A stretch of 64,000 bases of DNA from Candidatus Zixiibacteriota bacterium (lineage in GTDB: Bacteria > Zixibacteria > MSB-5A5 > GN15 > JACZUZ01), in assembly GCA_024280775.1 (NCBI GenBank), contig JAJRPM010000012.1:186001-250000 (forward strand). The letters are read 5' to 3'. Under the pieces are notes generated by a model. That model made no database searches and was not told the DNA's origin. It saw only the letters and a list, made by a program, of their open reading frames with translations. Shown here piece by piece: positions 5,790 through 51,749 of the stretch. Position 1 is the first letter of the stretch; every line of letters starts with the position of its first letter. The position numbers and the translations under genes are program-made.

Positions 5790-6800
5790 TTGTTTGTGGA
5801 TTCGTCAAAAACTGCAGAGAAACTAATAGCGCTGATTCGTCGCTCACCGTCGCGAAGATTCACTTTCCTGCGCCTAGCCGAGAAACTCGAATCAACCGAA
5901 CCAGAAATCGCCTCAGGAATTGAAACGGCTACCGCCTGGGGTTACAAATTTGGCGCTGGCGCCGGTTGGTGTCAGTTCCGTTCTGCGCCGGATGCGCTAA
6001 TTGACACGGAAATTGCCTATGGATTGAAAACCAAATCATTCGGCAAAGTTATCCATGCCTACCGCTCAGTAAAATCCACCATCACTATAGCAAACAAACT
6101 CGCCGACGATGGAGCGCCGGAAGGAACTTTGATTATCGCCGAGAAACAAACCCAGGGCCGCGGCAGACTCGGGCGAAGCTGGCACAGCCCCGAAGGTGTG
6201 GGGGCTTATCTTTCACTGATTGTCAGACCAGACCTGGAGCCGGTTGATGCGCCAGCGTTGTCGATAGTGACGGCTCTGGCGTATGTCGAGGCGCTCAAAA
6301 AGGAAACCGGGATTTCTGCGCAAGTCAAATGGCCCAACGATGTCACTATCCGGGGGCGTAAGGTTGCAGGAATCCTAACTGAGCTCACTACATTTCGCAA
6401 TGAAATCTCGCATATCGTTATTAGCGTGGGGATGAACCTCAATCACACACGTGAACATTTTCCAACTGAGCTAAGAACCAAAGCCTCGTCATTACGTATC
6501 GCACGCGGGAAAAAGGTCAATCGCATCGCAGTCATCCAGCGGTTCCTTGAATATTACGAGAGACGTTACCAACAATATCTCGACGAAGGGTTCAGTTCGC
6601 TACGCAGGAAAGTACTCAAATATTCCTCACTGATAGGCAATGACGTAATGATTCTTGGCGCGCGTGGTTATCAGCCGATTTACGGGCAGGTTCTTGACAT
6701 TGACGAGAGCGGACGTTTGGTTGTAGATACTATCGATGGACCGCAAGCCCTGCTATCCGGAGAAGTAACCTTGCAGGAGACATATAAGAATGCCAAGTGA
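5790..6800 (+). CDS. birA: Biotin-[acetyl-CoA carboxylase] ligase with N-terminal helix-turn-helix (BirA)
   Basis: BirA activates biotin with ATP and attaches it to the biotin carboxyl carrier protein; forms with a DNA-binding domain also repress biotin genes. The protein has about 336 residues. Residues 1-65 look like the winged helix (LIRRSPSRRFTFLRLAEKL). The ligase core carries KQTQGRGRLGRSWHSPEG (biotinyl-AMP loop), VKWPNDVTIRGRKVAGILTE (catalytic Lys and acceptor region) and HIVISVGMNLN, followed by a C-terminal SH3-like domain. Start choice lies between TTG at 5790 and GTG at 5796, and both are weak. It follows nadC by ten bases and its last codons overlap the start of iscU, so these genes are co-transcribed. 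Confidence 0.94.
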   Translation: MFVDSSKTAEKLIALIRRSPSRRFTFLRLAEKLESTEPEIASGIETATAWGYKFGAGAGWCQFRSAPDALIDTEIAYGLKTKSFGKVIHAYRSVKSTITIANKLADDGAPEGTLIIAEKQTQGRGRLGRSWHSPEGVGAYLSLIVRPDLEPVDAPALSIVTALAYVEALKKETGISAQVKWPNDVTIRGRKVAGILTELTTFRNEISHIVISVGMNLNHTREHFPTELRTKASSLRIARGKKVNRIAVIQRFLEYYERRYQQYLDEGFSSLRRKVLKYSSLIGNDVMILGARGYQPIYGQVLDIDESGRLVVDTIDGPQALLSGEVTLQETYKNAK

Positions 6801-7170
6801 AGATTTTGCTTATAACAAATTAGTGATGGATCATTTTCAGAATCCACGCAACGCAGGGGAAGTTGAAAACCCCGATGTCACCGCCGAGACTCGCAACCCG
6901 CATTGTGGTGATGCGATTCTACTGGGCCTGAAGATTGACAATGACACTATCACCGATGCAAAGTTCCTAACTTTCGGTTGCGGCGCAGCAATCGCCACTT
7001 CATCAATCGCCACCGAAATGTTCACCGGAAAGACACTCACCGAAGCCGCGCAAGTTACTCCCGAAAATATCATCGATGCTCTAGGCGGACTACCGGAACA
7101 CAAACATCCCTGCGCCAAGCTTGCGCCAGAGGCGCTACAAATAGCTCTAGAAAAATATCAAGCGAAATAA
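6790..7170 (+). CDS. iscU: IscU/NifU-type iron-sulfur cluster scaffold
   Basis: This is a scaffold on which [2Fe-2S] clusters are built with sulfur from a cysteine desulfurase. At 126 residues it matches the IscU-only length. The three conserved cysteine sites are present: NPHCGDAILL (with the conserved Asp after Cys-Gly), FGCGAAIATSS, and HPCAKLAPEAL. The N-terminus MDHFQNPRNAGEVENP is the family opening. It overlaps the end of birA by 11 bases, indicating translational coupling. No iscS or sufS is in the window, so the sulfur donor must lie elsewhere. Two BFD-type ferredoxins and an Mrp-type carrier elsewhere in the window could be part of the same metabolism, but this is inference. Confidence 0.92.
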   Translation: MPSEDFAYNKLVMDHFQNPRNAGEVENPDVTAETRNPHCGDAILLGLKIDNDTITDAKFLTFGCGAAIATSSIATEMFTGKTLTEAAQVTPENIIDALGGLPEHKHPCAKLAPEALQIALEKYQAK

Positions 7171-9952: not shown

Positions 9953-11107
9953 CTATTGAATAACTTGCGCCTGACCGCTGACAACCTCAAATATCCGCGC
10001 ATTCTCAGCAATCGACCCCGGAGCTTTGAGCGCGGTAGTGACAACCAATTGCCCAAGCTCCGCAAATGAGGCAATCAACGCATCCTGACGAGTAATATCC
10101 AACTCTGCGAAGATTTCGTCCAGCAAAAGAATCGGCGGCTCTTCTTTGCGCTCTTTCAGAAAATCATACACCGCCAACTTCAAAGACACCGCCGCGCTGC
10201 GCCATTGCCCCTGTGAGCCATGCGAGCGCGCCGGTAAATCACGGATTGTTATCTCTATATCATCACGATGCGGGCCAACCAATGTAGTCTGCCTGTGACG
10301 CTCCGCCTCACGGCGCAATTCCAAACGGGCTCTGAAACTCTCTGCGAGTTGTTCCGGCTCAGACTTGGCCTGCAAAATACTCTCTCGTTCGTTGATAGAA
10401 AGTTTCTTATCGGCGGAAGACAAAACAATCGAGGGCAAGTAATAACAACCGAGAGCTTCACCAGAAGAGATACGCCGGTAATACTCGCTGGCGCATGACT
10501 GCGCATAGCGAATAAACTCCAATCGAAAGCTGGTTATCTTAGTCCCGATAGTGATAAATTCCTCATCGAAGGGTGTACCGTCACTATCGAGTTGATACTG
10601 CCGCAAGTGACTGTTCCGTTGCGCCAGGATTCGCGCATAACGACTCAAGTCACTAAGATAATTTACGCTAGCTTGTGAAAGATGAAAATCCAGGAACTTG
10701 CGCCGCGCTGATGGTGACGCTGAAATAATATCCGAATCCTCCGGCGATAGTGACACCAAAGAAAATGTGCGAAACAGTTCCGAGGCGCGAGTTGGTTGGC
10801 CATCAAGGACTATCTTCTTCCCCCGAGTGGTGGAACTACTCTCGCATGCCACACTAAGCTCATAGGCGCGATGCTGACGTTGTAGTATTCCATGCAGACG
10901 AAAGAATTCTCTACCGGATTGTATTAGCGCGCTATCGGAAGAATTGAGGCGCTGTGAGCGTCCCAGGCACAGTGTCGCAATAGACTCAAGGATATTAGTC
11001 TTACCGGAGCCGTTGATGCCAGTGAAGATGTTAATACGAGGATTAAGAGACAGGGTTTGCTGCTGGATATTGCGAAAATTTTCCAGTGAGATAGTTTCTA
11101 CAAACAT
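9953..11107 (-). CDS. recF: DNA replication and repair protein RecF
   Basis: RecF is an SMC-like ATPase that directs RecOR and RecA to single-strand gap edges. The 384 residues include the opening FVETISLENFRNIQQQTLSL, Walker A INIFTGINGSGKTNILESIA, the signature GSQGQWRSAAVSLKLA and Walker B PPILLLDEIFAELD. It sits 57 bases downstream of dnaN, the widely conserved dnaA-dnaN-recF order. No clear Shine-Dalgarno is visible before the ATG at 11107. recO is also in this window, and recR is not seen. Confidence 0.96.
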   Translation of the reverse strand: MFVETISLENFRNIQQQTLSLNPRINIFTGINGSGKTNILESIATLCLGRSQRLNSSDSALIQSGREFFRLHGILQRQHRAYELSVACESSSTTRGKKIVLDGQPTRASELFRTFSLVSLSPEDSDIISASPSARRKFLDFHLSQASVNYLSDLSRYARILAQRNSHLRQYQLDSDGTPFDEEFITIGTKITSFRLEFIRYAQSCASEYYRRISSGEALGCYYLPSIVLSSADKKLSINERESILQAKSEPEQLAESFRARLELRREAERHRQTTLVGPHRDDIEITIRDLPARSHGSQGQWRSAAVSLKLAVYDFLKERKEEPPILLLDEIFAELDITRQDALIASFAELGQLVVTTALKAPGSIAENARIFEVVSGQAQVIQ

Positions 11108-11164
11108 ATTTGTCTATGAAAAAATGCTAAGAAACATTCTTGCAAACAAAACTGAAACGCTTGA

Positions 11165-12277
11165 CTACTCAGCAAGACGCAAAGGCATAATCAAACAAAT
11201 GTAGTCCTCTTTGTTCTTATCGGCTCCATAAATCACACCAGCGGAAATCGGACTATCCAATTCAAATAATGTCTCTTCTGAATCTACCTTGTTTAGAATA
11301 TCGCTTATGTAACTAGCCTTGTAGCCCAATTCAATCGGGTCTCCCTGAAAATCACAGGCCAGCGTTTCAGTAGCTTCACCACCGATATCTGCATTAGCGC
11401 TGGAGAGTTTCAACTTCGAACCGGAAATCGAAAAGCGCACCTGATGAGTCAAAGCGCTCGAGAGAATCGAAACCCGACGCACCGCGCTGGCAAGCTCCTC
11501 ACGATTCACCCGCATAGTCTTGGTGCTTTGCTTGGGAATCACCTGATCATAGTTCGGATACGGACCTTCAATCAAGCGAGTGGTCAAAGTTATATCACCC
11601 AAATTGAAGGCCAAATCATTCTCTCCGAAAATGATTCCGATTTCCTTAGAGGTGTCAGTCATCAGCTTGGTCAGCAAATTCAAAGCCTGCGGCGGAACAA
11701 TCACATCGTCGTGCAAACCCTTGAGCTTGGTATTGGCGACCGTGTAGCGCGAAAGGCGATGCCCGTCAGTAGCCACCATCACCATCCGGTCACTCTTGGT
11801 CTGCCAAAGCACCCCATTGAGCGCAGGACGTGTCTCATCGGTTGAACAAGCGAATGTCGTATGCGAAATCATATTCATCAACTCAGAACCAGCCAACTTG
11901 ATTTGCTTCTTGAGATTTATAGCCGGCAAAGTCGGATAATCATCAACTTCAACCGTAGCTATTTTGTAGGTTCCGTTAGGCGCCTTCATTTCCAGCTTAC
12001 TGCCGGATAGCTCGAATTTGATCTCTGATTCCGGCAGCTCACGAACGATGTCATAAAGAATCCTCGCCGGAGCCGCCACCACACCCTTCTTGGAAACTTC
12101 ACATTCAAAAGTTGCGGTGATTGATATATCAAGATCGGTGGCTGAAATTTTGACCTTTTGCTCGAGAGCCTCAATCATGATATTTGATAAGATTGGCAGA
12201 GCCGGCTTGGAAGGGGACACCTGCAAAACCGACTGTAAATAGCCGGCGAGAGTTGATCTGGAGACGCTAAACTTCAT
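11165..12277 (-). CDS. dnaN: DNA polymerase III sliding clamp, beta subunit
   Basis: The ring-shaped clamp tethers the replicative polymerase to DNA. At 370 residues it shows the standard three-domain clamp. The N-terminus is MKFSVSRSTLAGYLQSVLQV, domain 2 begins near KQIKLAGSELMNMISHTTFA with TRPALNGVLWQ and ATDGHRLSRY, and the C-terminus ends EDYICLIMPLRLAE with the usual P-x-R partner-site residues. AGGACAA lies about nine bases upstream of the ATG. It is separated from dnaA by a 444-bp gap that carries DnaA boxes and an AT-rich block. Confidence 0.97.
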   Translation of the reverse strand: MKFSVSRSTLAGYLQSVLQVSPSKPALPILSNIMIEALEQKVKISATDLDISITATFECEVSKKGVVAAPARILYDIVRELPESEIKFELSGSKLEMKAPNGTYKIATVEVDDYPTLPAINLKKQIKLAGSELMNMISHTTFACSTDETRPALNGVLWQTKSDRMVMVATDGHRLSRYTVANTKLKGLHDDVIVPPQALNLLTKLMTDTSKEIGIIFGENDLAFNLGDITLTTRLIEGPYPNYDQVIPKQSTKTMRVNREELASAVRRVSILSSALTHQVRFSISGSKLKLSSANADIGGEATETLACDFQGDPIELGYKASYISDILNKVDSEETLFELDSPISAGVIYGADKNKEDYICLIMPLRLAE

Positions 12278-12439
12278 GATTATTTGTCCTAATGTGCTTT
12301 ACGGTAACTTCGATGAACATCTTCTGAAAATCTCAATATTTCAAGTCTATTGAGATATTAAATAGGCGCTTGTGCATCTGTACTTTTTAAGCAATTCCTG
12401 TTTCTGGTGATGGCAGAGAAAAGTTGTCCGCCACATAGT

Positions 12440-12620
12440 ATATTATAAAACAATGTATATATATAAAATATAATAGTAATAAAGGCTGTGGATATGTGGA
12501 TAAGGTCTAATTCGCTGACTCAACCTGTTGTCCTGTATGATTATTTTCCTTCTTTTTCTTTCCACATCCGTCAATTTACAATGTTGGCAGGGCGCTGGTT
12601 ACTAGCCTATTATCCACATT
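12440..12620. other. Candidate replication origin (dnaA-dnaN gap): AT-rich block plus DnaA boxes
   Basis: The 444-bp gap 12278-12721 holds no convincing gene. A block at 12440-12482 is almost pure A/T (runs such as TATATATATAAAATATAATA). It is followed by TGTGGATAT (12487-12495), TGTGGATAA (12495-12503, a perfect inverted DnaA box) and TTATCCACA (12610-12618, a perfect box). An AT-rich unwinding element flanked by DnaA boxes next to dnaA is the usual oriC design. Two other gaps in the window also carry boxes, so which one is active is unknown. Confidence 0.6.
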
Positions 12621-12721
12621 TTGCAAGCTCTTCAAATACTCCACAATTCCCTCACAAACTTACCAACACAATTGTCAACACCCTAATCTTGCCCAACAAG
12701 GCTCAAAAACTCTCCAAAGGA

Positions 12722-14263
12722 CTAGCGAAGAGTCGCAAAAATTCCATCAACCTGGTCTTTGAACATTGAATCATCCTGCATTCTTGCGCTAACCAATGAG
12801 CAGGCGTGAATCACCGTGCTATGATCCCGACCGCCAAAATCATGCCCGATTTGTTGCAAACTACGCCCAGTTAAATCTCGTGTTACGTACATGGCCACCT
12901 GACGCGCCAGGGCTATATTAGCAGAGCGTTTCTTGGCTTTGAGCATTGCCACCGGCACCTCAAATGACTCAGAGACCACCTCCTGGATTATCCGCACCGA
13001 CACTTTAGTCTTTGAGTTTTGCAGAGTATCAGCCAAACTGCGGGTAACAAACTCTTCATCAATATCGGTAATCTTCTCGACCGACGCTCTGGCATATAGA
13101 TGAGTCAATGCGCCTTCCAATTCGCGTACATTGCTGGTGATACGCTCCGCGACAAAGTGCAATATGTTCTCTTCAATATCGAAATCATACTCGCTGAGCT
13201 TCTTCTTGAGAATAGCAACACGTGACTCAAAATCCGGCTTCTGGATGTCGGTAACCAGGCCGGAGCTAAAACGTGACAACAGCCTTGCTTCGAACCCCTT
13301 GATGTCCTGTGGTCGTCTGTCAGCGGTCAGGACAATCTGTTTACCGGCATTATAGAGCGCATTGAAAGTATGAAAGAACTGCTCCTGAGTTGATTCTTTG
13401 CCGCTGAAGAATTGTATATCATCAATCAGCAGAATATCTACTGAACGATAGGTGTCTATAAACGATCCAGTTGATGACTTACCCAAAGAGTTAATAAAAT
13501 CCATCGTGAATTTCTCACTGGTGGCATACATCACTCTGGTTCTCGGATTCTGTCGCATTGCGGTAAGGCCGATAGCCTGCGTGAGATGAGTTTTGCCTAG
13601 CCCCACGCCGCCGTAAATAACTAACGGATTATACTTAGTGCCGCCGGGGTTCTCAGCAACCGCCGCGCAGGCCGCATGCGCGAATTCATTAAATTTGCCT
13701 ACTACCAAATTGTCAAATCGATAGCGGTCGTGAAGTCCATGGTTAGTGTTGGCGCGACTTATTCCCGGAGCTTGAAAAGAGCGATTCGCAGAGTTATTAC
13801 CTTCTTCCGGATAAGCCTTATCAGTTTCACCGAAACCTATTTCGGTTTGCTCTGGAATACTTGATTGAGCGCGAATCTGAAAATGAAAAGGAATAGTCTT
13901 GCCGGTAGTCTCACTCAGCGCCTCCTCAATCAATCCCGAGTAATTCTCCTCAAGCCAGTCTGCTACAAATTGATTAGGCACTGTAATCTCCAAAGAGTTA
14001 ATCCCCTCCGGAGACTCAGCTACAACCCCAATAGTCGGCCGCAACCAGGTTGCATAAGACTGCTTTTTCAAACGCCGCGACATATATTCCAAAGCTCGTC
14101 GCCAGGTCACATCCGAAACTCGCGGTTTTTGTTTCTGGGAGACCTTAGCGGGATCCATTGAAGCGGGAGACAGTTGGCTTTCTGTTAACGCTACAGGCGC
14201 AGAGCCGGGTAGAATTTCCGGGAGACTATTCTCCGGGAATTGTGAGGCGCCAATATCAGACAT
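12722..14263 (-). CDS. dnaA: Chromosomal replication initiator DnaA
   Basis: DnaA binds origin boxes, melts the duplex and loads the helicase. The protein has 513 residues. An extra N-terminal stretch of about 45 residues precedes domain I (WRRALEYMSRRLKKQSYATW). A Pro/Asn-rich linker follows, then the AAA+ core YRFDNLVVGKFNEFAHAA, Walker A GGVGLGKTHL, Walker B ILLIDDIQFFSGK and sensor region LTADRRP. Domain IV carries the DNA-binding signature GGRDHSTVIHA. GAGGAAAAACT precedes the ATG at 14263, which supports the long N-terminus despite an internal Met at residue 36. It is followed by dnaN and recF, and preceded by a 1.16-kb non-coding gap. Confidence 0.97.
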   Translation of the reverse strand: MSDIGASQFPENSLPEILPGSAPVALTESQLSPASMDPAKVSQKQKPRVSDVTWRRALEYMSRRLKKQSYATWLRPTIGVVAESPEGINSLEITVPNQFVADWLEENYSGLIEEALSETTGKTIPFHFQIRAQSSIPEQTEIGFGETDKAYPEEGNNSANRSFQAPGISRANTNHGLHDRYRFDNLVVGKFNEFAHAACAAVAENPGGTKYNPLVIYGGVGLGKTHLTQAIGLTAMRQNPRTRVMYATSEKFTMDFINSLGKSSTGSFIDTYRSVDILLIDDIQFFSGKESTQEQFFHTFNALYNAGKQIVLTADRRPQDIKGFEARLLSRFSSGLVTDIQKPDFESRVAILKKKLSEYDFDIEENILHFVAERITSNVRELEGALTHLYARASVEKITDIDEEFVTRSLADTLQNSKTKVSVRIIQEVVSESFEVPVAMLKAKKRSANIALARQVAMYVTRDLTGRSLQQIGHDFGGRDHSTVIHACSLVSARMQDDSMFKDQVDGIFATLR

Positions 14264-24599: not shown

Positions 24600-25517
24600 C
24601 TACGGAGAAACAGTAGCAACTGCGCCATAGGAGCTTGGGATATATATTGCTGTGAGTACAGGGTCTTGTGCAGTCGCGCTCGAAAGCGTACTTGCCCTCA
24701 ATTGTTTTCCTTCCAATCGAAACGTATAGGAGCCGGCGGTTTTGAAATATGTACGCTGGGATGTGCAATTGAAATTGTGCCATCCTGAACTGGCATATGT
24801 ATCGAAGCCCACTATCGAATAGATTCCCTGAACTTCGCTACCTCCAGAAGTTTCGTCAATTTGGATTTTGGCCGCATTCATCGATGTGGCTCCATTAAAT
24901 AACACTGATGTTCTGCCTTGAAGGAATATGTAACCGTCTTGTGGAATAGTTATTGTGACAGTAGTCAGATCAACCATTCCGGTAGTGTTGAGCGCTATTG
25001 AGGTGGCTTCGCGCCCCTGCGCGATTCCTGATTCATTGCTCAGTTTTACAGAGCCGATCGAGTTGTCCACTATTTTGGAGGCAGTTATGCTATTATCAAC
25101 CACTGTGGTAGCGATTGCCGCAGTTTCTGAATTCAGAGACTCAATAGCAAATGCCTGAGATGTAATCCTGGTTCGAGGAGCTATTTCCGGATCTGTGCCA
25201 ACCGTGATTCCCAGCCACCGACCTGTATCAGCAAATAGATTGCCCGGCAAGACAGAGTTAGAACCCAAATCGTATGCGAATAATCCATCGACAATATTCA
25301 CCGTTTGGAAATTTGAATTCCACAAAGCAGTCCCGCCGCTTGACGCATCATAGATAATGAACTTAGCCAGGTATGGACCATCTGCTACCGTCACTCCAGT
25401 GTTGTCAGTCAAGCGACCTTGATAGGCGATAGTTCGAGGAGCGCCTGCATAAGCGCTTGAGTGGATACATACTGCAGCGCTAAACGCAAGCGCTATCGAA
25501 AGTTTGGAAAGGTTCAT
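24600..25517 (-). CDS. Secreted 'YQGRLTD' family surface protein, 2 decapeptide repeats
   Basis: The shortest of five paralogues. A signal peptide (SIALAFSAAVCIHSSAYA) is followed by the shared N-terminal domain beginning RTIAYQGRLTDNTG, with AKFIIYDASSGGTALWNS, LFADTGRWLGITVGTD and PRTRITSQAFA. Then come two ten-residue repeats (DNSITASKIV, DNSIGSVKLS), the marker NESGIAQ, and a C-terminal beta-rich domain: VTITIPQDGYIFLQGRTSV and TYFKTAGSYTFRLEG. It ends without the helical tail seen in three paralogues. AAGGAG is eight bases upstream of the ATG at 25517. Function is unknown. The layout resembles fibre-like or adhesin proteins, but that is inference. Confidence 0.8.
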   Translation of the reverse strand: MNLSKLSIALAFSAAVCIHSSAYAGAPRTIAYQGRLTDNTGVTVADGPYLAKFIIYDASSGGTALWNSNFQTVNIVDGLFAYDLGSNSVLPGNLFADTGRWLGITVGTDPEIAPRTRITSQAFAIESLNSETAAIATTVVDNSITASKIVDNSIGSVKLSNESGIAQGREATSIALNTTGMVDLTTVTITIPQDGYIFLQGRTSVLFNGATSMNAAKIQIDETSGGSEVQGIYSIVGFDTYASSGWHNFNCTSQRTYFKTAGSYTFRLEGKQLRASTLSSATAQDPVLTAIYIPSSYGAVATVSP

Positions 25518-25674
25518 CTTTACTTCTCCTTGCTGTGTAATCGTCAATTCAATTTGGTTTACTACATATATAATAGAAGAGTATTATATCAAATAATCTA
25601 CTATGTGTCAGCAAAATGTCAAGATGATTCTTGAGAGTGTTGCGCCGTGGGGGATAGTAGCTACAGTGGAGAGC

Positions 25675-25705
25675 AAAAAAGCGGCGCTGAAATTCAGCGC
25701 CGCTT
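25675..25705 (-). terminator. Rho-independent terminator of the dockerin-protein gene
   Basis: A 13-bp perfect stem AAGCGGCGCTGAA with TTCAGCGCCGCTT, one base in the loop in this simple pairing, and a run of six T on the minus strand directly after it. It ends the transcript from 26430. Confidence 0.9.
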
Positions 25706-25737
25706 GGTAAGACTAGCTTATGTAATCAAGAAATCTA

Positions 25738-26430
25738 TCAAGTACCGGTGGTACCGCAAATCGGGGCCGGACCACCGGAGAAAATGCGCGCGATACCAAA
25801 GGTAACATCAGCGATATTGAATGTATTATCGCCATTTGCGTCAGCTTGGTCTTGGCAGATAGGAGCCGGGCCGCCAGAGAAAATACGTGCGATACCGGAG
25901 GTTACGTCAGCAATATTGAATGTAGCGTCATTATTGAAATCACCAGGAGTAGCGCAACATCCCGCAGACGCAAAACTCTGCAGAAATCCATGGCTAAGAT
26001 TGAAATTAGTCGATGAGCCGCTTCCAACCGCCGTTTGGCCGATAACACTTATTAGGCCAAAATTAGTAGAAGAACCCGAACCACCACCACCTGAGATTAC
26101 TTGCCAATTGATTTGCTCACCCGTGGCTGGCGCCGAAGGGCTTGAACTCGCGCTACCTTGACGAATTTGCGCTTGAATCTCAGCCTGAGAGGTCCCGATT
26201 CTCTTTAGAAGAATATCGGTTTCATCGGAAACGCTGGCAGTTATCGTCTTGGTCTTGGGTGCGGTTTTCGTTTTGGCAGTTGAAGTAGCCTTGGTCGGGC
26301 TTGTGGCTTTTGTAGTTGTTTGCGCCACCTTCTTCTTGGTTCCCTTGGCAAAGCTATCGCCTGAGAAACTTCCGGTAATCAAGAATGCGCCTAGCACAAA
26401 TGATAGCGCGATTGTTAATGACTTTTTCAT
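25738..26430 (-). CDS. Secreted dockerin-type calcium-binding repeat protein
   Basis: About 230 residues. The ATG at 26430 has AAGGAA six bases upstream and starts a signal peptide (KKSLTIALSFVLGAFLITGS). A Lys/Thr-rich region (TTKATSPTKATSTAKTKTAP) follows, then a coiled stretch and a Gly/Ser-rich segment with an internal repeat, SSTNFGLISVIGQTAVGSGS and SSTNFNLSHGFLQSF. The C-terminus has two dockerin type I-like repeats, DFNNDATFNIADVTSGIARI and DANGDNTFNIADVTFGIARI, each with EF-hand spacing and followed by FSGGPAP. Dockerins bind cohesins, and none is visible here. Such proteins are common in non-cellulosomal Zixibacteria-like genomes. It splits the paralogue array between the first and second member. 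Confidence 0.82.
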   Translation of the reverse strand: MKKSLTIALSFVLGAFLITGSFSGDSFAKGTKKKVAQTTTKATSPTKATSTAKTKTAPKTKTITASVSDETDILLKRIGTSQAEIQAQIRQGSASSSPSAPATGEQINWQVISGGGGSGSSTNFGLISVIGQTAVGSGSSTNFNLSHGFLQSFASAGCCATPGDFNNDATFNIADVTSGIARIFSGGPAPICQDQADANGDNTFNIADVTFGIARIFSGGPAPICGTTGT

Positions 26431-26554
26431 ATGATTTCCTTTGAAGTAAGGTGAGTATAACCCTAATAGATTTGCTCTCTGCAATATACTTATTTCCAAC
26501 GATCAGTCAAGAGAAATCCTCATAGAGGGATTTCCCTGATCTCGTCTAGTGTTG

Positions 26555-28129
26555 TTACTCGCTTTGTTGATTGCGAGCTTCTTCTAGTTCCAGTTTTGCT
26601 TTCAAAGCCGCTTCTTCAGCTTTTCTAGCCTTGATTTCCAACGCCCTCAAATCAACCTCGTACATGGTCTCGGTGACCGTCGGATCCTCGTCGACGATAA
26701 CCTGTATCGCACGCGACCCCGGAGGAGCATCAGTGATAGAACTGACCGTAGTAGTGGTTGGACCGTAACTCGTAGGGTAGAACACTGCAGAGACCAAAGC
26801 ATTGAAGGCTGACACCGAATGGGTGCCAAAGGTTTTTAATCCCTCCAATCGGAATGTGTATGTGCCAGCGCCCTTGAAGTACGTTCGCGTAGCGGCTGCA
26901 TTGTAATAAAAATTACCAGCGCTTGGAAAAAGAGCCATACCGCATTTAGTGGAGTGAGGGGTTATTAGCGTTCCTCCGGCTATTTCATCAATTTGAGTTT
27001 GTATATAGTTCTGTGTTGTAGCTCCGCTAATACGCAAATAGCACCTTCCGGTAACCACAATATATCCCGAAGTAGGAATTGTGATTTGTACAGTCTCAAT
27101 GTCTGTCATTGTTGTTGTGAAAACAGTACCAGGATTAGTTTGTTGAGATGCAATTCCAGGTTCATCTAGAATATCCGTATCCAAGACTGAATTGTCCGCG
27201 ATTTCACTGGATCCAACACCTCCTGCAGCAATGTCGGCGGCAGTTATGGTATTGCTTGCAATATCTATACCTGTGATAGTACCAGTTGCGATATCTGAGC
27301 CTAAGATAGTACCGTTAGCGATTTTGCTAGATATAACTGCGTTGTCAGCGATTTCACTTGTCCCAACCGCACCAGTTGCAATCTCACTTGCTCCTACCGA
27401 ATTCGCCGCCAGGTCATTGGCCGTCAATGAATTGTCAGCAACTTCACTTGTGCCCACTGAGCTAGCCGCCAAGTCGTTTGCCGTAAGAGAATTGTCGAAA
27501 ATGTCAGCGGAGCCAATGGAGTTGTTCAGGATATCCAGTGAGTTTATTGTACCGTCTGCTATATCAAGTCCCGTGAGTGATCCATCTGCGATATGAGAGC
27601 CACTAATGGAACCGAACCCATAGTTATTGGCTCCGATCCCTTGATTGGCTATATCTGTTGAGTCGATTGTCCCATCGACAATTTTAACTCCGGTTATGCT
27701 ATTATCAAATACCGTTGCGGCAATTCCAGCGGTGTCTGAAATAATTGATTGTTTGGCATAGGCGCTTGACGTGATTCTTGTGCGGGGCGCCAATTCCGCA
27801 TCTACACCAATAGTGATTCCCAGCCAGCGGACGGTATCAGCAAACAAGTTACTCGGGAATGCCACATTTGATCCAAGCTCATAGCTAAATAGCCCGTTTA
27901 CCGTGGTAATATTCTGAAACCCGGCGTCCCAGAGAATCGTACCGGCTACTGGAGCATCATACATGACAAACTTTACCAGTACAGGGCCATCGGGAACCGG
28001 ATCTCCTGCTCCGTCAGTCATACGGCCCTGATAATTGATTGAGTTCGGGGACGCGGCGAAGACGCTACCAACCGCGACCGCCAGTAGCAATCCGATAGTG
28101 ATCGCGAGGTTTTTGTAGAATCTTTTCAT
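26555..28129 (-). CDS. Secreted 'YQGRLTD' family surface protein, 18 decapeptide repeats
   Basis: The paralogue with the longest repeat array, about 524 residues. The ATG at 28129 (AGGA seven to eight bases upstream) starts a signal peptide (RFYKNLAITIGLLLAVAVGS). The N-terminal domain reads NSINYQGRMTDGAGDPVPDG and TRITSSAYAKQ. Residues encoded at 27167-27706 form eighteen consecutive ten-residue repeats of pattern x-N-S/T-I/V/L-x-x-x-D/E-I/L-A, with no insertions. DEPGIASQ ends the array. The beta-rich domain (VQITIPTSGYIVVTGRCYL, TYFKGAGTYTFRLEG) follows, then a C-terminal helical tail YEVDLRALEIKARKAEEAAL. No enzymatic motif is seen. Exposed fibre or adhesin is the best guess. Confidence 0.82.
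   Translation of the reverse strand: MKRFYKNLAITIGLLLAVAVGSVFAASPNSINYQGRMTDGAGDPVPDGPVLVKFVMYDAPVAGTILWDAGFQNITTVNGLFSYELGSNVAFPSNLFADTVRWLGITIGVDAELAPRTRITSSAYAKQSIISDTAGIAATVFDNSITGVKIVDGTIDSTDIANQGIGANNYGFGSISGSHIADGSLTGLDIADGTINSLDILNNSIGSADIFDNSLTANDLAASSVGTSEVADNSLTANDLAANSVGASEIATGAVGTSEIADNAVISSKIANGTILGSDIATGTITGIDIASNTITAADIAAGGVGSSEIADNSVLDTDILDEPGIASQQTNPGTVFTTTMTDIETVQITIPTSGYIVVTGRCYLRISGATTQNYIQTQIDEIAGGTLITPHSTKCGMALFPSAGNFYYNAAATRTYFKGAGTYTFRLEGLKTFGTHSVSAFNALVSAVFYPTSYGPTTTTVSSITDAPPGSRAIQVIVDEDPTVTETMYEVDLRALEIKARKAEEAALKAKLELEEARNQQSE
27167..27706 (-). repeat. Tandem array of 18 thirty-base coding repeats (decapeptides)
   Basis: Exactly 540 bases encode 18 ten-residue units. 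Examples are DGTINSLDIL, DNSLTANDLA (present twice), ANSVGASEIA and SNTITAADIA. The two DNSLTANDLA copies differ at several synonymous positions, so the protein pattern, not the DNA, is conserved. A plus-strand open frame over the array is a by-product of its composition. Confidence 0.9.
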
Positions 28130-28538
28130 TAGAGAATCCTGCCAAAGATATAGGTGAAAGAAGAACAATTACTTTTGATATAGGGCCAACCACCATTCAC
28201 CTAGAGCAAATTCACATACGAAAAGGAAGTTCAAAAGGCGACCTATTGAGATTTGCTCAAGACGAGACCTTTGACTCGTATGTGAAAGATTCAGGGCAAC
28301 TCTTGATGTAGTAAGTTGGCTATTGCCGCTACTAATATAGTCCCTGCCTATCGGGTGTCAAGAGCTTTTTCATACCCGCCTCTTACCACACTTTCTTCTG
28401 TATCATGTAGTTGAGACTCCTTTGAAACAATTACCGGATAGTTTGCAACCCGATACATAGAACACGAACACATCAACTATTATCAAGAGCCACATCAAGT
28501 TATTCAGACCGCTCGGCAATCGCGCCTTTCTACTGTTA
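28130..28538. other. Intergenic region without a recognised gene
   Basis: 409 bases between two paralogous surface-protein genes. It must hold the promoter of the gene starting at 28129. I see no ORF with family likeness. Bases 28205-28290 carry a loose inverted repeat of TTCACATACGA and TCGTATGTGAA-like sequence (28210-28220 against 28266-28280), which may mark an operator or terminator but is not assigned. Confidence 0.5.
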
Positions 28539-29672
28539 TCACTTAACTCCAGTCCTGGCTCTTGCTCTTCGCAAATCCAATTCAGCGCGTAGCGCTTCCT
28601 CTTGAGCCTTCTTTGCCTGCATTTCATAATAGCGCAAATCAACTTCCCAGCCCTTGCCAGTTACACTACCGGACTCATCAATTATTGCCGTCTCTATTGC
28701 CTCCGGATTGTTACCGGGATTAGAAGTTACAGTTTGAACTGTTCCGTAGCTTGTTGAAAAGAAAATGGCGGTTAATGTTGGAGAAATCACATCGGCAGTC
28801 CCGTTTGAAGTTTCTTTGAAGCCTTTGAGCCGAAATGTATAGGTGCCTGCGCCTTTGAAATAGACTCGTTGAACCGTAACAGGCCAAGTCGCCATCACGG
28901 TACTCTTGTATGCGTCATTACCAACGCGTACAGACTGAGGAGTCAATCCCGTTCCAGAGGCTGATTCCTCGATTCTAAGGACAGCGGTGTTTGCAAGTGT
29001 AGCGCCTCCTAGTGACAAAGAAGCTTTGGCAACTAGGAATATGTAACCAGAAGTCGGTATGGTAATTGTGGTAGTTATGATATCAGTTGATGACCCAAGA
29101 ACTAGCGGTACGCTGATAGCCGAGTTGCTAGATGTAATCCCCGGTTCTTCCAGCAGATCTTGCGCTTTAAGAGAATTGTCCTGAGTGATTATCGATTCCA
29201 CTGCCGCGTCAGCTATATCGCTATTGGCGATAGTGAAATCAGCAATGTGCGACGACGTTATTCCATCTGCTGTAACCGCTGACGCTACCCGTGAATAGGG
29301 AAGCGCTCCGAGCTTAAGTCGTGGCATATTCTCCGGATTGCTTCCATAAGATACTCCCAAATAGCGGCCCGTGTCTTCGAAAAGAGTAGCTGGAAATGGG
29401 AATATTGAGCTAGTTCCCAAAGCAATTGAAAACCATCCATCTTTGGTGAGTATGCTCGAAATTCCTGAATCCCAAAGGATATTTCCGCCTGTGGGCGCAT
29501 CGTAGATTCGGAAATCTGCCAGCAGAAAAGTATCAGCAATCGGCGCTCCAGAAGCTAATGTTAATCTTCCTTGATATTGGATTGAATTAGGAGTCGCTGC
29601 ACTCAGATTGCCGGATGTAATGGTTATACCTAGTACGACAGCGACAATTAAGTATGCTTGAAATCTGCGCAT
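28539..29672 (-). CDS. Secreted 'YQGRLTD' family surface protein, 4 decapeptide repeats, helical tail
   Basis: A 377-residue paralogue. A signal peptide (RRFQAYLIVAVVLGITITSG, cut near LSAA) leads into the domain NSIQYQGRLTLASGAPIADT, YDAPTGGNILWDSG and RLKLGALPYSR. Four ten-residue repeats follow: ADGITSSHIA, DFTIANSDIA, DAAVESIITQ and DNSLKAQDLL, with the end marker EEPGITSS. The C-terminal domain has ITIPTSGYIFLVAKASLSLG and VYFKGAGTYTFRLKGF. The tail is WEVDLRYYEMQAKKAQEEAL then RARARTGVK, a basic amphipathic helix. AAGGAGC precedes the ATG at 29672 at a usable distance. It and the next gene (29706) are 33 bases apart, probably one transcript. Confidence 0.8.
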   Translation of the reverse strand: MRRFQAYLIVAVVLGITITSGNLSAATPNSIQYQGRLTLASGAPIADTFLLADFRIYDAPTGGNILWDSGISSILTKDGWFSIALGTSSIFPFPATLFEDTGRYLGVSYGSNPENMPRLKLGALPYSRVASAVTADGITSSHIADFTIANSDIADAAVESIITQDNSLKAQDLLEEPGITSSNSAISVPLVLGSSTDIITTTITIPTSGYIFLVAKASLSLGGATLANTAVLRIEESASGTGLTPQSVRVGNDAYKSTVMATWPVTVQRVYFKGAGTYTFRLKGFKETSNGTADVISPTLTAIFFSTSYGTVQTVTSNPGNNPEAIETAIIDESGSVTGKGWEVDLRYYEMQAKKAQEEALRAELDLRRARARTGVK

Positions 29673-29705
29673 CTTGCTTTTGCTCCTTTCTTCCTTAATT
29701 GTCTG

Positions 29706-30854
29706 CTATTGATGTTTACTTAGTTGTTGGCTACGCGCTCTTCGAAGTTGTTTCTCAGCTTCTAGCGCCTTGATGCTCGCTTCTCTGGCTCGCATCTCAT
29801 AATAGCGCAAGTCAACATCCCAGGCCTCACCGGGAACAATCCCTGATTCATCATTTACTATCACTGCCTTGGCGTCTGGATTATCACCTGGATTACTTGT
29901 AACTGTTTGGACAGTTCCATAGCTAGTTGGAATATAAATCGCCGTGAGAGTAGGGAAAATCACGGTCGCTGTTCCGTTGGCCGGCCCCCTACCTGCCTTA
30001 AGTCGAAAAGTGTGCGCACCGGCGCTCTTAAAATATACGCGATGAACAGCGGCCGGCCACCGATGTGACGCAGTGCTAAAATAGGCTTCATTACCAATGC
30101 GAACCGAGTGAGAAGTTAGTCCCGATCCCCCGGCTGTTTCACTAATCCTCATGTCTACATAATTCGTCAGTTTCGTGCCGGTAAGTACTACATAGGCCTT
30201 TGCCTGAAGGTAGATATATCCCGGAGCGGGGGTAGTAATTGTGACAGTGGCGATGTCAACCATTGAAGTTGAGGTTAGCCCTACACTCCCGGAGGAGTTG
30301 TTGGAAGCGATACCGGGTTCGTCAAAAAGGTCAATTGCTTTGATAGAGTTATCTTGCACCACAAACGACTCCACTGCATTGTCTGCGATGTCATTATTGA
30401 CAATTGTAAACGGAGCTATCATGGGTGAAGTTATGGAATTCAGCGCTACTGTTTCTGTTGTTCGCGTATAGGGCGTTGATCCCAGCTTTACACGAGGAGA
30501 AATCTCTGCATCGCCCCCAACCGTTATTCCCAAATAGCGACCTGTATCTGAGAATACCGAGGCAGGAAGCGGGAATGTGACGTTCGTTCCAAAAGTAGCT
30601 GAAAACAACCCGTCTTTAGTGATAATACTCTCTAATCCCGAATCCCATAAGATACTTCCGCCTGTGGGCGAATCATAGATTCGGTAGGTAACAAAAAGAA
30701 AAGTATCTGGAACCGGAGCTCCAGAAGGATCAGTCAGTCGACCCTGATAATTAATAGTCTTTGGCGAGGCGGCATTCGCCTGTGATGAACTGAGTGTGAT
30801 AATAGCTAGAGAGAACACAGCTACCGCTAAAGCGTGAAGGTGAGATAAACGCAT
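29706..30854 (-). CDS. Secreted 'YQGRLTD' family surface protein, 4 decapeptide repeats, helical tail
   Basis: A 382-residue paralogue and the closest relative of the 28539 gene. Signal peptide HALAVAVFSLAIITLSSSQA; N-terminal domain KTINYQGRLTDPSGAPVPDT, SPTGGSILWDSG and VKLGSTPYTRTTE. The repeats are LNSITSPMIA, PFTIVNNDIA, DNAVESFVVQ and DNSIKAIDLF, then DEPGIASN. The beta-rich domain has VTITTPAPGYIYLQAKAYVV and VYFKSAGAHTFRLKAG, and the tail WDVDLRYYEMRAREASIKAL. Similarity along the full length to the gene at 28539 points to tandem duplication. Function is unknown. Confidence 0.8.
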   Translation of the reverse strand: MRLSHLHALAVAVFSLAIITLSSSQANAASPKTINYQGRLTDPSGAPVPDTFLFVTYRIYDSPTGGSILWDSGLESIITKDGLFSATFGTNVTFPLPASVFSDTGRYLGITVGGDAEISPRVKLGSTPYTRTTETVALNSITSPMIAPFTIVNNDIADNAVESFVVQDNSIKAIDLFDEPGIASNNSSGSVGLTSTSMVDIATVTITTPAPGYIYLQAKAYVVLTGTKLTNYVDMRISETAGGSGLTSHSVRIGNEAYFSTASHRWPAAVHRVYFKSAGAHTFRLKAGRGPANGTATVIFPTLTAIYIPTSYGTVQTVTSNPGDNPDAKAVIVNDESGIVPGEAWDVDLRYYEMRAREASIKALEAEKQLRRARSQQLSKHQ

Positions 30855-31261
30855 AATGCAATCCTTTGTATGACTGGTATATAGAATGTTTTGTTTTCAA
30901 TGAATGTATTAACTACGACCAGTGAAAACTCTGGCGCTGAGTATCCTGACGGCGGAGAAAGCATATTAGTTATTGAAAGTAACAATAAGCTTTCACCAAA
31001 CAAAATACGATACTTGAACTCTTTGTCAAGAATTGTTTCACCATAATTCTACAACATGAAGAAACTTCGTACTGTATAGTGCAATAACATGCGACATATT
31101 TCCTGCGTTGTGATTCTAATTGTCTTAGTTGATAATGGCTATCAATTGTAGCATACATGCTCAATAAAGACCACACTCAAAGCTAAGACAGCAAAAAACA
31201 TACCTCGCGGATATGTAAAACAATTATTGTGTCAAAAGGAATCTGCGGAGAAGCAAAGCCA
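30855..31261. other. Intergenic region without a recognised gene
   Basis: 407 bases between two paralogous surface-protein genes, AT-rich. It must contain the promoter of the gene starting at 30854. I see no ORF with family likeness, no RNA gene and no strong hairpin followed by a T-run. Confidence 0.5.
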
Positions 31262-32761
31262 TTACTTAGAGGACGGAGGCAGAGGAATATCCGGCTGAAC
31301 AGTCGAAACTGTGCCGTAGGTGGTAGAATAATACACCAAAGAAAATGTTACATCAAACGTGGACCAAATTGGGCTGGCGGCGGTGGTCTTTCGACCTAGG
31401 AGATAGAACGTGTTCACTCCAGCGCTCACCGAAAAAATCCTCTGCAAAGACACTATTGAGGTAAACATACCTGTGTTAGCGCTACTTGGAATATCCATGT
31501 TCTTGTTTTGATCACCTGGAAGTGAGGCGCTCGTATTGGAGAGACCGACAATAGCCTGTGAGGCGGTTCCGAAAACGTGATCGACTTTCATCTCAAAACT
31601 CGCCATTACCATAACGTAGCCGTTTGCCGGAGCCGTTATTGGCAACGAAGCTATTGTGGTGAGCGATGGCACAGTCAAAAATGAAGCGCCGGTGATTTGC
31701 GCAACACCGGGTTCATCAAGCATTCCTGTCGAGGAAAAACTGCCGTTCTGCAAATGTGAAGCGCCAATGCTATTGGGGGCAATCTGTGCGCCGGTGATAG
31801 AGCTATCGGAGATTTTTGTGGAGTCAATAGCTCCGGCAATAAGCTCACTAGCTCCAATTGAATTGGGAGCCATATCAATGTTAGTGACAGAGTTGTCTAC
31901 TATCTCTGAGGAAGCAACCGAGTTTGCCGCCAGATCTACTGTAGTGAGTGAGTTGTTTTGCACTTCGGAGCTTCCCACCGAACTGGCCGCGATTTTTGCG
32001 GCGGTAATCGCATTATCGGCTATCAATTGCTCTGTGACACCCGATGCGACTATAGAAAACTCTCCTCCGACTAATTGCAATCCCGCTCCGGCTGAAAATG
32101 CCGCCCCGTCATCAACCCCATCGGCAAAACCGGCGGGCATGTTATTGATACTATTCCAGTCTAAATAAAAGCCCGGAGCCATTCCAGCCAATGTGTTTGC
32201 ATTGACTGCAGTTCTCGCCGAATCTGCTAGAGTTGCCGAATCGGCAAATGCCGCGCTATTTGCACTAAGCGCCAGCGCCGCAAGCTGGGAGAAACCCGCC
32301 GAATCCGACTGTTGCGCTGTAAGTGACGAATGAGCAAATGACGCTACTTCGCTGGAGTCTGCATGTGATGCTTCCAATGCATAGGGAGAGCTACGAAATG
32401 GAATACGAGGCGCTAACTCACTGTCACTACCAATTGTGATACCCAGGAATCTGTTTGCTCCGGAGAAGAGTGAGACCGGTAACGAAACGTTTGAACCAAG
32501 AACATAAGTAAACAGACCATCCCTAACTAATACCGCCTGCTCACCTGCATCCCAAAGAACACTACCGGCAGTTTGCGCATCATATATCGCCAAGCGAATC
32601 ACATATGCGCCATCATCCAAAGCTGTTCCGGCAGGGTCGGTTAGGCGCCCTTGAAAGGTGATTGTCTGAGGTGGCGTCGCGCCGGGAATTGTGAATAGTA
32701 GCAATGCAAAGAATAGGACAATAGTAGAGAGCTTCAAATATGCGGAACGGAGAGAGGGCAT
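31262..32761 (-). CDS. Secreted 'YQGRLTD' family surface protein, 10 decapeptide repeats
   Basis: A 499-residue paralogue, the most divergent. The signal peptide STIVLFFALLLFTIPGATPP is followed by QTITFQGRLTDPAGTALDDG and RIPFRSSPYALEASHA. An alanine/serine-rich segment (ADSATLADSARTAVNANTLA) is unique to this member. The ten repeats at 31718-32017 run from DNAITAAKIA to NGSFSSTGML, followed by DEPGVAQ. The C-terminal domain has LPITAPANGYVMVMASFEMK and FSVSAGVNTFYLLGR, without the helical tail. It is the most upstream gene of the array on this strand. The AD-rich segment resembles short helical repeats found in other fibre proteins, but I assign no function. Confidence 0.8.
   Translation of the reverse strand: MPSLRSAYLKLSTIVLFFALLLFTIPGATPPQTITFQGRLTDPAGTALDDGAYVIRLAIYDAQTAGSVLWDAGEQAVLVRDGLFTYVLGSNVSLPVSLFSGANRFLGITIGSDSELAPRIPFRSSPYALEASHADSSEVASFAHSSLTAQQSDSAGFSQLAALALSANSAAFADSATLADSARTAVNANTLAGMAPGFYLDWNSINNMPAGFADGVDDGAAFSAGAGLQLVGGEFSIVASGVTEQLIADNAITAAKIAASSVGSSEVQNNSLTTVDLAANSVASSEIVDNSVTNIDMAPNSIGASELIAGAIDSTKISDSSITGAQIAPNSIGASHLQNGSFSSTGMLDEPGVAQITGASFLTVPSLTTIASLPITAPANGYVMVMASFEMKVDHVFGTASQAIVGLSNTSASLPGDQNKNMDIPSSANTGMFTSIVSLQRIFSVSAGVNTFYLLGRKTTAASPIWSTFDVTFSLVYYSTTYGTVSTVQPDIPLPPSSK
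31718..32017 (-). repeat. Tandem array of 10 thirty-base coding repeats (decapeptides)
   Basis: Ten units such as ASSVGSSEVQ, NNSLTTVDLA, ANSVASSEIV and PNSIGASELI with the same pattern as the array at 27167-27706, ending directly before the DEPG marker. Confidence 0.9.
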
Positions 32762-44185: not shown

Positions 44186-47100
44186 CTACTTCAACAAAAC
44201 CATCTTCTTCGACAACTTCGTAGCCCCGGCGCTTAGCTTGTAGAAATACATCCCCGAAGCAAACTCGCTGGCATCCCATGTCACTACATGAGCGCCTGCC
44301 TCTTTAACCTCATCAACCAATGTCTCCACCTTCTGCCCAAGAATATTGTAAACTCTCAATGTCACTTGTGCGCGACTAGGAACAGAATAACTAATCTTGG
44401 TAGTAGGATTAAACGGATTTGGATAATTTTGCGCAAGAGCAAACGTCTTAGGCAAGGTCTGCTCTTCATCATCACTTGTCACATCAGTCTGAAAATCACC
44501 AAGTATCTCAGCGAAGAAATCCTGCGCCTGCTGAGGCTCCCATTCCCACGGATTGGAAATCAAGACATAGGCGGTATGAGTCTCAGGAGTATACTTCACA
44601 CCAATCGGCAATCCTTCAAAATCCGAAGCAGTGTCACGTCCACTTACCCAAGTGTAAAGGACTTCTGTATTGTCACCTCGGGGAAACATAACGCCCTTAT
44701 TGGGAATTGGTCCTTCAGTCAATTCTATTGGAGAAGTGTAAAACCCGCTGTGATGATATGACAAATCCGGGAATCCGTTGTCGGAAGCCGCCGAAGCCCC
44801 GACTGGTTGATAAAAACCGTTAACCGAGTCGAGTTCCACTTGACCTGTTGCGGCAGGAACCATTAGTACCGAGTCGAGTCCAAATATCTCTCCGCCCAAG
44901 TCGTACTTACTTGAATTAGCTTCTAGAAACACTGTGCGCACAAGATTGTTCGGTGTCTCAAAACTTCTATTTGGAGCAAAGCCTATTCCAAGGTCTACCA
45001 GGCTCCCGCCGGAGCGAGCGTATTCCATTACCCAATATACCCTGTCGCGATCTAACTGCGTACGACCGCTAATCATATTCCCTCCCGAACCATCGACAAT
45101 GACTGTCTCATAGTTTGCGGTAAGACGGTAATGAGGTGGCCACTGCGATAACTCGCCACGAGGCGCTCTCCGAAAAGTAAAATCAACATCATAGTTTACC
45201 AATAGATCTCGATAGAAATGAAAAATGCTCTTAGTCATTGGAACTGTTATTCCGTTGGTTCGTAACGAGTCCGAAAGAATAACCAAAACCGATTTACGCT
45301 CCTCCGGAACAGTGTATCCAATAACTGGCGCAGACAACTCAGATTCATTTCCAGCAAAGTCAACGGCAGTCACTCCGTAAATAAATTTCTCCGGAGCGCC
45401 AGGAGATTCAACAAATGACAGCTCTTCCCCGGGAACTTGCGCATGCTCAATCTTGGAAGTAAGACACACAATAGTTGAATCAAATCGCCAAACCGCTCCC
45501 GAATCCTGAGTGACTTCCATGAAAGAATCTACCACAAAATCACTGCATATCACTTCGAGTTCGGCTCTCCAAAGTAGATTACATTCTCCGATTCCCACTA
45601 CATTTAGCGAGCTGTAACTAGCTATTGTATCAGAGAGCCGGTACACGTTGAAATGATCAATGTCCGGATCATCAGTTTTCCAAAGCAGTGTTATCTCTTC
45701 ACTGCCGCTTATATAGCCGTTTTCCAATTGGTCTTTGTTGCGAAACATAGCGCTGTCCCATCTTGGCGCTTTGGGAATACCGTACTGAAAAACAACTGGC
45801 TCGGAAATCGGTGTTACTGAATCAGGCGCCGGATGTACTGCAACCGCCGCCGCATACCACTTTCCGTCTTGTAGATCAGTTAGCCTGAAAGTATCTGTAG
45901 CAACATTCGCTATGATATTCTCTGGTACAAATTGCGGGGTATCGACCAGAATATACTGACAGGCCACAGCGCTATCCGGCGCCATCGCCAAATACACATC
46001 GTAACTTTCCACCGATGGACTCCCGCTGAACAACCAACTCATCAGTGGCTCTGACGATAACTTGTCATCAAGTACCGGTTGTGGCGGAGGGGAAATTATT
46101 CTGACATCGTAGCCCGACACATATAGTGATTCAGCTGCGGCTATATTTCTTTGCAAGTCAGTTAGATCCAGTTTTGAATAATAAGTTTCTGGCTGAAGCG
46201 GATTAAAGAAATCAGCGAAATCGGTTGGGCCTACATGGTAATTATCACCTATAGCAATCGCCACCACAAATACCAACGAATCACCCGGCGCCAGTGAAAC
46301 GCCTCCTTGTGAAATCAGAAACCTGGTATCGAATCCATCAGCGAAGTTTGGATCCCCTGGAGGTAGCCAAAGAGGTGTATGGTCAACACTTGCAAAAAGC
46401 TGATCATAGTCCACTTCTGGATGGGAGAGGATATAGTATTTGTTTTTCGCGCCTTCCGGTGTGCCAAGAAAACCACCGAAATCTCTGAATGGATCTTCAT
46501 CTGTCCCTGACATTCGTGGGCCGAAATCCAAAGCCGCCGTTCCATTGCTTATCCACCAATTGAACGACGGCGGTTTCAAAGTTGTCGTGTCAGAATGTCT
46601 GATATCAAGAATCTTAACTCCCAAAACTGCACGTGTCGATTGTTCTGTCCAATCAAGGCCGAGATCGTTTACCGGGTGCCCGTCATTGTCTGCTAGATAG
46701 GCAATTCCCTCCAAATATCCGGTAATATCATCGGTGAATCCGTCCGAGTTTGATTTTAACATAATGTCTCCATCCATATACAGGCCGACATATACATCTT
46801 GGAGTGTGTCTGGATTGAATGAATTTGTGATTTGATATTCAATCACCGCAAAATCGTTGTTGGGCTCTCGATTCCAAGCCATGCTCAACTGCTTAACAGT
46901 GATGCCCAATGCGCCCGGTGTATTGGGTACATTCCAAATCGGCGGTAAGGAGTCATGGTAAATTGCCTCAAAATTTTCATCAGCAACTCCCGAGACAATC
47001 CTCACCCCGGGATTCTCAGGGTCAGGAAGCATAGTCTCAGAGCTCGCCCAGCCATCTGCGCCCACCGAAACTAGTGTGTCTCTGCCGACAATAGCCCCAA

Positions 47101-47446
47101 CCCACAACGATCCACCGAAGAGGTAGTCAAGGAAGGAATTTTTTGGAAACTCAAACCCCGGCAACTGGTCATGAGTTCCCGGCTCGAAAGTTGCGGTGGT
47201 AAAACCGTTTCCGATTGTGCCATTATGTGGAATAGTTAACTCGAAAGAGCCACTGCGATGTACACGAACCACTGGCGCTATAGAGCTGGCGGATGGTGAG
47301 GCCTGGCGATTTGTTTCGCCTTTCGGTCGGAAGAGATTGCGAGCTCCTAGATTCGTAGTCAGCCCCAATGAAATGACTAATGCCCCAAGCGCTAGCTCAA
47401 CGAATAGCAATGTTCGGGGTTGATAGTGCAACTTTGTCTTAAACAT
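44186..47446 (-). CDS. Large secreted protein with type IX secretion sorting domain
   Basis: About 1086 residues. The N-terminal signal anchor is TLLFVELALGALVISLGLTT. The body is beta-rich, with segments typical of Zixibacteria/FCB secreted proteins (NPDTLQDVYVGLYMDGDIML, SFDTRFLISQGGVSLAPGDS-like, fibronectin type III-like stretches around DIDHFNVYRLSDTIASY and FIYGVTAVDFAGNES). The last 85 residues are the sorting domain: LPKTFALAQNYPNPFNPTTK, then VTLRVYNILGQKVETLVDEV, ASGMYFYKLSAGATKLSKKM and the terminal VLLK. Cargo of the Por system is moved across the outer membrane and anchored or released. No catalytic domain is recognised. It is a single gene between a SIMPL gene and a secreted peptidase. 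Confidence 0.85.
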   Translation of the reverse strand: MFKTKLHYQPRTLLFVELALGALVISLGLTTNLGARNLFRPKGETNRQASPSASSIAPVVRVHRSGSFELTIPHNGTIGNGFTTATFEPGTHDQLPGFEFPKNSFLDYLFGGSLWVGAIVGRDTLVSVGADGWASSETMLPDPENPGVRIVSGVADENFEAIYHDSLPPIWNVPNTPGALGITVKQLSMAWNREPNNDFAVIEYQITNSFNPDTLQDVYVGLYMDGDIMLKSNSDGFTDDITGYLEGIAYLADNDGHPVNDLGLDWTEQSTRAVLGVKILDIRHSDTTTLKPPSFNWWISNGTAALDFGPRMSGTDEDPFRDFGGFLGTPEGAKNKYYILSHPEVDYDQLFASVDHTPLWLPPGDPNFADGFDTRFLISQGGVSLAPGDSLVFVVAIAIGDNYHVGPTDFADFFNPLQPETYYSKLDLTDLQRNIAAAESLYVSGYDVRIISPPPQPVLDDKLSSEPLMSWLFSGSPSVESYDVYLAMAPDSAVACQYILVDTPQFVPENIIANVATDTFRLTDLQDGKWYAAAVAVHPAPDSVTPISEPVVFQYGIPKAPRWDSAMFRNKDQLENGYISGSEEITLLWKTDDPDIDHFNVYRLSDTIASYSSLNVVGIGECNLLWRAELEVICSDFVVDSFMEVTQDSGAVWRFDSTIVCLTSKIEHAQVPGEELSFVESPGAPEKFIYGVTAVDFAGNESELSAPVIGYTVPEERKSVLVILSDSLRTNGITVPMTKSIFHFYRDLLVNYDVDFTFRRAPRGELSQWPPHYRLTANYETVIVDGSGGNMISGRTQLDRDRVYWVMEYARSGGSLVDLGIGFAPNRSFETPNNLVRTVFLEANSSKYDLGGEIFGLDSVLMVPAATGQVELDSVNGFYQPVGASAASDNGFPDLSYHHSGFYTSPIELTEGPIPNKGVMFPRGDNTEVLYTWVSGRDTASDFEGLPIGVKYTPETHTAYVLISNPWEWEPQQAQDFFAEILGDFQTDVTSDDEEQTLPKTFALAQNYPNPFNPTTKISYSVPSRAQVTLRVYNILGQKVETLVDEVKEAGAHVVTWDASEFASGMYFYKLSAGATKLSKKMVLLK

Positions 47447-51593: not shown

Positions 51594-51621
51594 CCCCTTC
51601 CTCCATATTTGAAAGTTTCAC

Positions 51622-51659
51622 AAACAGCCGGAGTCAATATGATTCCGGCTGTTTCTTTT
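51622..51659 (+). terminator. Strong rho-independent terminator after the DUF1579 gene
   Basis: AAACAGCCGGA pairs with TCCGGCTGTTT, extended inward by GTC/GAT-type pairs, followed by CTTTT. It lies inside the upstream extension of the next gene's frame, which supports the later start at 51750. Confidence 0.85.
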
Positions 51660-51749
51660 GGGTCTGTTTTCAAAACCAATTATTCATTTGACAGAATCCA
51701 TATATGTATTATCGTTATTATACCTGACCGCCAACAGGGGAGAGGTTCT

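Follow-up and report, generated by a model that had tools for sequence, protein, structure and literature searches.

The five paralogous proteins described here (A to E) are MAT-like: a homologous base, a mosaic plan and a predicted tip fold connect them with the MAT fibres that Bdellovibrio bacteriovorus uses for gripping prey (Caulton et al. 2024, PMC10769870). The island that encodes them probably specifies five chimeric surface fibres, each with a surface base, a shaft of variable reach and a trimerising, ligand-binding TNF-like tip, diversified by tip exchange and by repeat number. An earlier note on this DNA had named no known system of this layout, yet the layout is that of the Bdellovibrio fibres (PMC10769870).

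Five secreted proteins of one architecture

The window, a stretch of 64,000 nucleotides, corresponds to positions 186001-250000 of contig C15 in a genome of 3.17 Mb (17 contigs, 97% complete). All five genes that the earlier note had placed on the minus strand within 24600-32761 were found, and they do share the architecture it described: a signal peptide (recognised by eye) is followed by an N-terminal domain, whose motif is YQGR(L/M)T in A-D and FQGRLT in E; then come the decapeptide array, the marker [DEN]E[PS]G[IV] and a C-terminal domain. A sixth gene of the island, which encodes a dockerin-like protein, is not a fibre paralogue; in the sister genome a counterpart with 69% identity lies at the corresponding position. 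The features are as follows.

24600..25547, minus strand: protein A, 315 aa as listed, Met probably at residue 11; has a signal peptide, a MAT-type N-terminal domain, 2 decapeptides and a predicted TNF-like tip
25038..25097, minus strand: decapeptide array of A, 2 copies, then NESGIA; score reached by 0 of 1000 shuffles
25738..26499, minus strand: secreted dockerin-like protein encoded within the island; Pfam Dockerin_1 at E 3e-4, score just below the cut-off
26555..28168, minus strand: protein B, 537 aa as listed, Met probably at residue 14; has a MAT-type N-terminal domain, 18 decapeptides, a predicted TNF-like tip and a C-terminal helix
26558..26740, minus strand: C-terminal tail of B with a VDLRxLExxAxxA helix (model residues 494-523, pLDDT about 90)
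26741..27166, minus strand: predicted TNF-like tip domain of B; BC2L-C N-terminal lectin at E 3e-6, PLTL lectin at TM 0.78
27167..27706, minus strand: decapeptide shaft of B; its 18 copies keep register as far as DEPGIA
27746..28060, minus strand: base of B (N-terminal domain, roughly residues 37-141), a relative of NCBIfam Bdello_MAT_N (E 2.2e-5); pLDDT mostly above 90
28539..29672, minus strand: protein C, with the common architecture; 4 decapeptides, predicted TNF-like tip, C-terminal helix motif
29151..29270, minus strand: decapeptide array of C, 4 copies, then EEPGIT
29706..30854, minus strand: protein D, with the common architecture; 4 decapeptides, predicted TNF-like tip, C-terminal helix motif
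30324..30443, minus strand: decapeptide array of D, 4 copies, then DEPGIA
31262..32761, minus strand: protein E; has an N-terminal domain, an additional segment containing PAGFADGVDDG, 10 (or 11) decapeptides and a predicted TNF-like tip
31718..32017, minus strand: decapeptide array of E, 10 copies, then DEPGVA

The best matches of A-E in named genomes all belong to Candidatus Zixiibacteriota, so the host is probably a member of this phylum. The source genome itself holds at least eight members with a MAT-type base, one of which carries an S74 domain above the Pfam cut-off; the S74 chaperone domain is absent from A-E in the Pfam search.

Elsewhere in the window, genes for a RecF/SMC-like ATPase, the DNA polymerase III beta subunit and DnaA stand in a row (9953-14263), so that a replication origin may be near, and a restriction-modification methylase of the Eco57I type is encoded at 58693-61659. 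Two proteins with Por_Secre_tail sorting domains (44186-47446 and 51609-53342) suggest a type IX secretion system. That domain is absent from A-E, and apart from the signal peptide neither an export route nor an outer-membrane anchor was recognised for them.

A base related to that of MAT fibres

The earlier note had proposed searching profile libraries with the terminal domains. Pfam gave no family above threshold for any of A-E, and in NCBIfam a single family matched all five bases, NF053851 Bdello_MAT_N, 'mosaic adhesive trimer family chimeric fiber protein'. The homology is significant (E 2e-7 to 3e-5, 24-31 bits), lies in the domain directly after the signal peptide and covers mainly the first half of the family profile. 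None of the five reaches the curated cut-off of 60 bits, and we therefore do not place them in that subfamily; the cut-off is exceeded in one of 132 genomes of the phylum. Matches below or above it occur in 113 of these 132 genomes and not in any of the 14 control genomes; of 94 diverse proteins gathered with our own N-terminal profile, 81 match the family as well (best 1.8e-13), so the similarity is no chance match in one genome. Some of the matches in the phylum span positions 3-136 of 162.

Contigs assigned by binning to ANME-1/Methanophagales and Methanosarcinales archaea (L040, L043, L046, L051, L057, L063) also encode MAT-type N-terminal domains; the four that were tested match Bdello_MAT_N weakly (E 8e-5 to 3e-3). 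Most of these archaeal-binned proteins have a C-terminal end like GTILGKALEPLDSGTG, and such an end is also present in Chloroflexi (L033, L045).

The decapeptide shaft

Each array runs into its marker in register, and the repeat counts given earlier for A to E (2, 18, 4, 4 and 10) were correct, with ASGVTEQLIA before the E array as an arguable 11th copy. Scored with a repeat profile built from other members, each protein surpassed all 1000 of its own shuffles; the rule 'aliphatic at 4 and 9' by itself lacked significance for A and C. The consensus of B is D/N/A, N/G, S/T, I/V/L, T/G, G/S/A, S/N, D/E, I, A, and the proposed division into two five-residue halves is real there, position 4 being aliphatic in 18 of 18 copies and position 9 in 17 of 18. 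The repeats had been called exact, which is true of their length and register and not of their sequence: the B copies have a mean identity of 45% at the DNA level, and Tandem Repeats Finder reported no array in the B DNA. From this divergence we infer that selection at the protein level, not recent slippage, has kept the period. The repeat also has a weak similarity to DotG/IcmE repeats (E 0.1).

In L173, from a relative, the array (6585-6914) repeats almost exactly every 20 residues (AGSVGTSEVADNSLTANDLA), whereas in B the divergence is between decapeptides. A 20-residue super-unit, clear in L173 and also present when the sequences were pooled (2 of 500 shuffles), was dropped because it is absent from B.

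What structure the shaft adopts is a separate question from whether the proteins are fibres. In the AlphaFold2 monomer of full-length B (62 sequences) the repeats have pLDDT values of 43-67, and a shaft-only model, built from a repeat-only alignment, has a mean pLDDT of 64, zero strands and zero fold matches in the PDB. Such low values would be expected if the repeats were flexible or disordered spacers with no defined fold, but this is unlikely, since a strict ten-residue register and the aliphatic positions are kept over 18 copies despite 45% DNA identity, which implies selection on periodicity, and in the shaft-only model residues 71-140 rise to pLDDT 70-77 and show a three-residue turn that recurs regularly with the ten-residue period. 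The earlier note had suggested that the repeats could form a beta-solenoid stalk; as a monomer, each chain would form a solenoid with two five-residue faces per decapeptide. An aliphatic residue at every fifth position speaks for this monomeric solenoid, as does a designed beta-solenoid in the PDB that the repeat matches weakly in register (E 2.9); we nonetheless consider it quite improbable, given the low-confidence repeats of full-length B, the strandless shaft-only model and the lack of a fold match. As the shaft fold may need three chains, which is beyond monomer prediction, we reject the monomeric beta-solenoid as a confident claim and do not reject other ordered shafts; a trimeric shaft is the likelier structure.

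The shaft has matches in tail-fibre families of phages (phrog_892, E 5e-20) and in 71 phage records, as would be expected if A-E were phage tail fibres or a prophage remnant, that is, virion parts encoded by a viral island. This reading is largely refuted, and we regard it as very improbable: all five proteins carry signal peptides, the flanking genes for DivIVA and purine nucleoside phosphorylase are kept in the sister genome, and the GC content of the island equals that of its surroundings. It is possible, and we propose it tentatively, that the decapeptide array represents an undescribed trimeric shaft fold common to the tail fibres of phages and the MAT-like fibres of bacteria; the gain or loss of whole repeats would then tune reach independently of the tip. 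A literature search on decapeptide tail-fibre repeats or such Zixibacteria proteins found nothing direct.

A predicted TNF-like tip

The base, variable stalk and tip of the earlier note proved to be the right layout, and AlphaFold2 models the N- and C-terminal domains of B (62 sequences) with pLDDT mostly above 90. The predicted tip is a TNF-like jelly roll. In a Foldseek search of the B model against the PDB, the top matches were two TNF-like lectins, the BC2L-C N-terminal lectin and PLTL (E 3e-6 to 4e-5; TM 0.62-0.78 by target length, identity only 10-14%), with other TNF-like trimers, ExsF, BxpB and Pgp3 ranked below them. At the sequence level nothing significant was found in the PDB, whether single sequences (two) or profiles (three) served as queries. 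The tip is thus assigned by fold for B and, for A, C, D and E, by sequence similarity to B; at such identities the class of ligand is a guess from the fold.

TNF-like trimers also form coats. A-E might be surface-coat proteins that form or anchor an external layer and bind no foreign ligand, as ExsF/BxpB do on Bacillus spores; both are among the fold matches, and the presence of the family in 40 of 40 close relatives fits a structural role. We find this distinctly unlikely, because the fold search ranks lectins over coat proteins, and high paralogue diversity and tip exchange better fit the recognition of varied targets, as the MAT-like reading has it.

In the collected set, 16 ORFs (a few of them overlapping copies) have the helix motif VDLRxLExxAxxA behind a TNF-like tip, among them B, C and D, and zero tip-less proteins of that set have it.

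Mosaic combinations and tip exchange

Mosaics are phylum-wide, and one base goes with many tips. Among the 94 proteins with a MAT-type base, 15 have an S74 chaperone domain at the end or within the protein according to Pfam (a regular expression for S74, too strict a pattern, found none), two have collagen repeats, and single members have BclA_C, H_lectin, Gp53-like_C, UspA1 repeats or kelch propellers. When bases were at least 60% identical, the C-termini had no detectable similarity in 72 of 146 pairs, and when C-termini were at least 60% identical, the bases fell below 45% identity in 49 of 109 pairs; these counts cover only ORFs complete at the 3' end and are pairs, not independent events.

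A congeneric genome (locus L117) keeps the order YggS, DivIVA, fibre cluster, dockerin-like gene and purine nucleoside phosphorylase. The comparison of repeat numbers in orthologous loci that the earlier note had called for gave this result: E is 71% identical to its counterpart with an equal number of repeats (by eye), and B, with 79% identity in the base and 66% in the shaft, has 18 repeats vs 14, a difference that aligns as two 20-residue gaps of uncertain placement. The C-terminal domain of B and that of its counterpart share 25% aligned identity, and this similarity is not significant; the tip has been replaced at a syntenic locus between congeneric species. Our tip profile still detects a tip in the counterpart, so the swap was probably for a distantly related tip that shares the broad fold.

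Proposed function

Surface display, fibre formation and glycan binding have been reported for Bdellovibrio MAT proteins (PMC10769870). By analogy, trimerisation, surface location and an adhesive role are probable for A-E. A cleavable signal peptide would export each chain, the conserved beta-rich N-terminal domain would be placed at the cell surface, and the copy number of the decapeptide shaft would set the reach. The distal TNF-like domain would trimerise and attach to other cells, to particles or to polymers, with glycans as its most likely ligands there. Several fibres in one genome would then differ in reach and tip, and the lineage may diversify them through tip exchange and changes in repeat number.

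MAT fibres were first described in a bacterial predator, and a related base and mosaic plan are present in most sampled genomes of an uncultured phylum; this analysis gave no evidence of a predatory host. The related base, the mosaic plan and the tip swap at a conserved locus suggest a general bacterial adhesion system of exchangeable parts, not a special tool for predation.

Comparison with known systems

Pentapeptide repeat proteins resemble the arrays in having an aliphatic residue at every fifth position, but A-E have no match to their Pfam family and reach two NCBIfam pentapeptide families only at E 0.01, and the monomer model of the array has neither strands nor a solenoid. Those phage tail fibres that contain decapeptide repeats (phrog_892 and others) share the ten-residue unit with aliphatic positions 4 and 9, but they are virion parts, and the MAT-type base was found in no named phage. 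The TNF-like lectins, the BC2L-C N-terminal domain (2WQ4) and PLTL (9IB7), share the predicted tip fold, but at low identity, and are themselves not fibre tips on a MAT base.

The MAT fibres of Bdellovibrio are the closest comparison. A-E differ from them in an N-terminal domain that scores under the curated cut-off (the comparison being made via profile NF053851), in length (about 300-540 aa vs typically about 1,000 aa), in having decapeptide arrays as shafts, and in the C-terminal helix behind the tip in B, C and D. Common to both are a signal peptide, a beta-rich N-terminal domain of about 130 aa, a variable shaft, many paralogues per genome, and exchangeable tips in S74 and non-S74 groups, with tips exchanged between proteins of near-identical bases. 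The likeness extends to the predicted TNF-like tip: the Bdellovibrio MAT tips Bd2439 and Bd2734 are TNF-like, and the best match of Bd2734 is 2WQ4 (PMC10769870), that is BC2L-C, which is also the best PDB match of the B tip.
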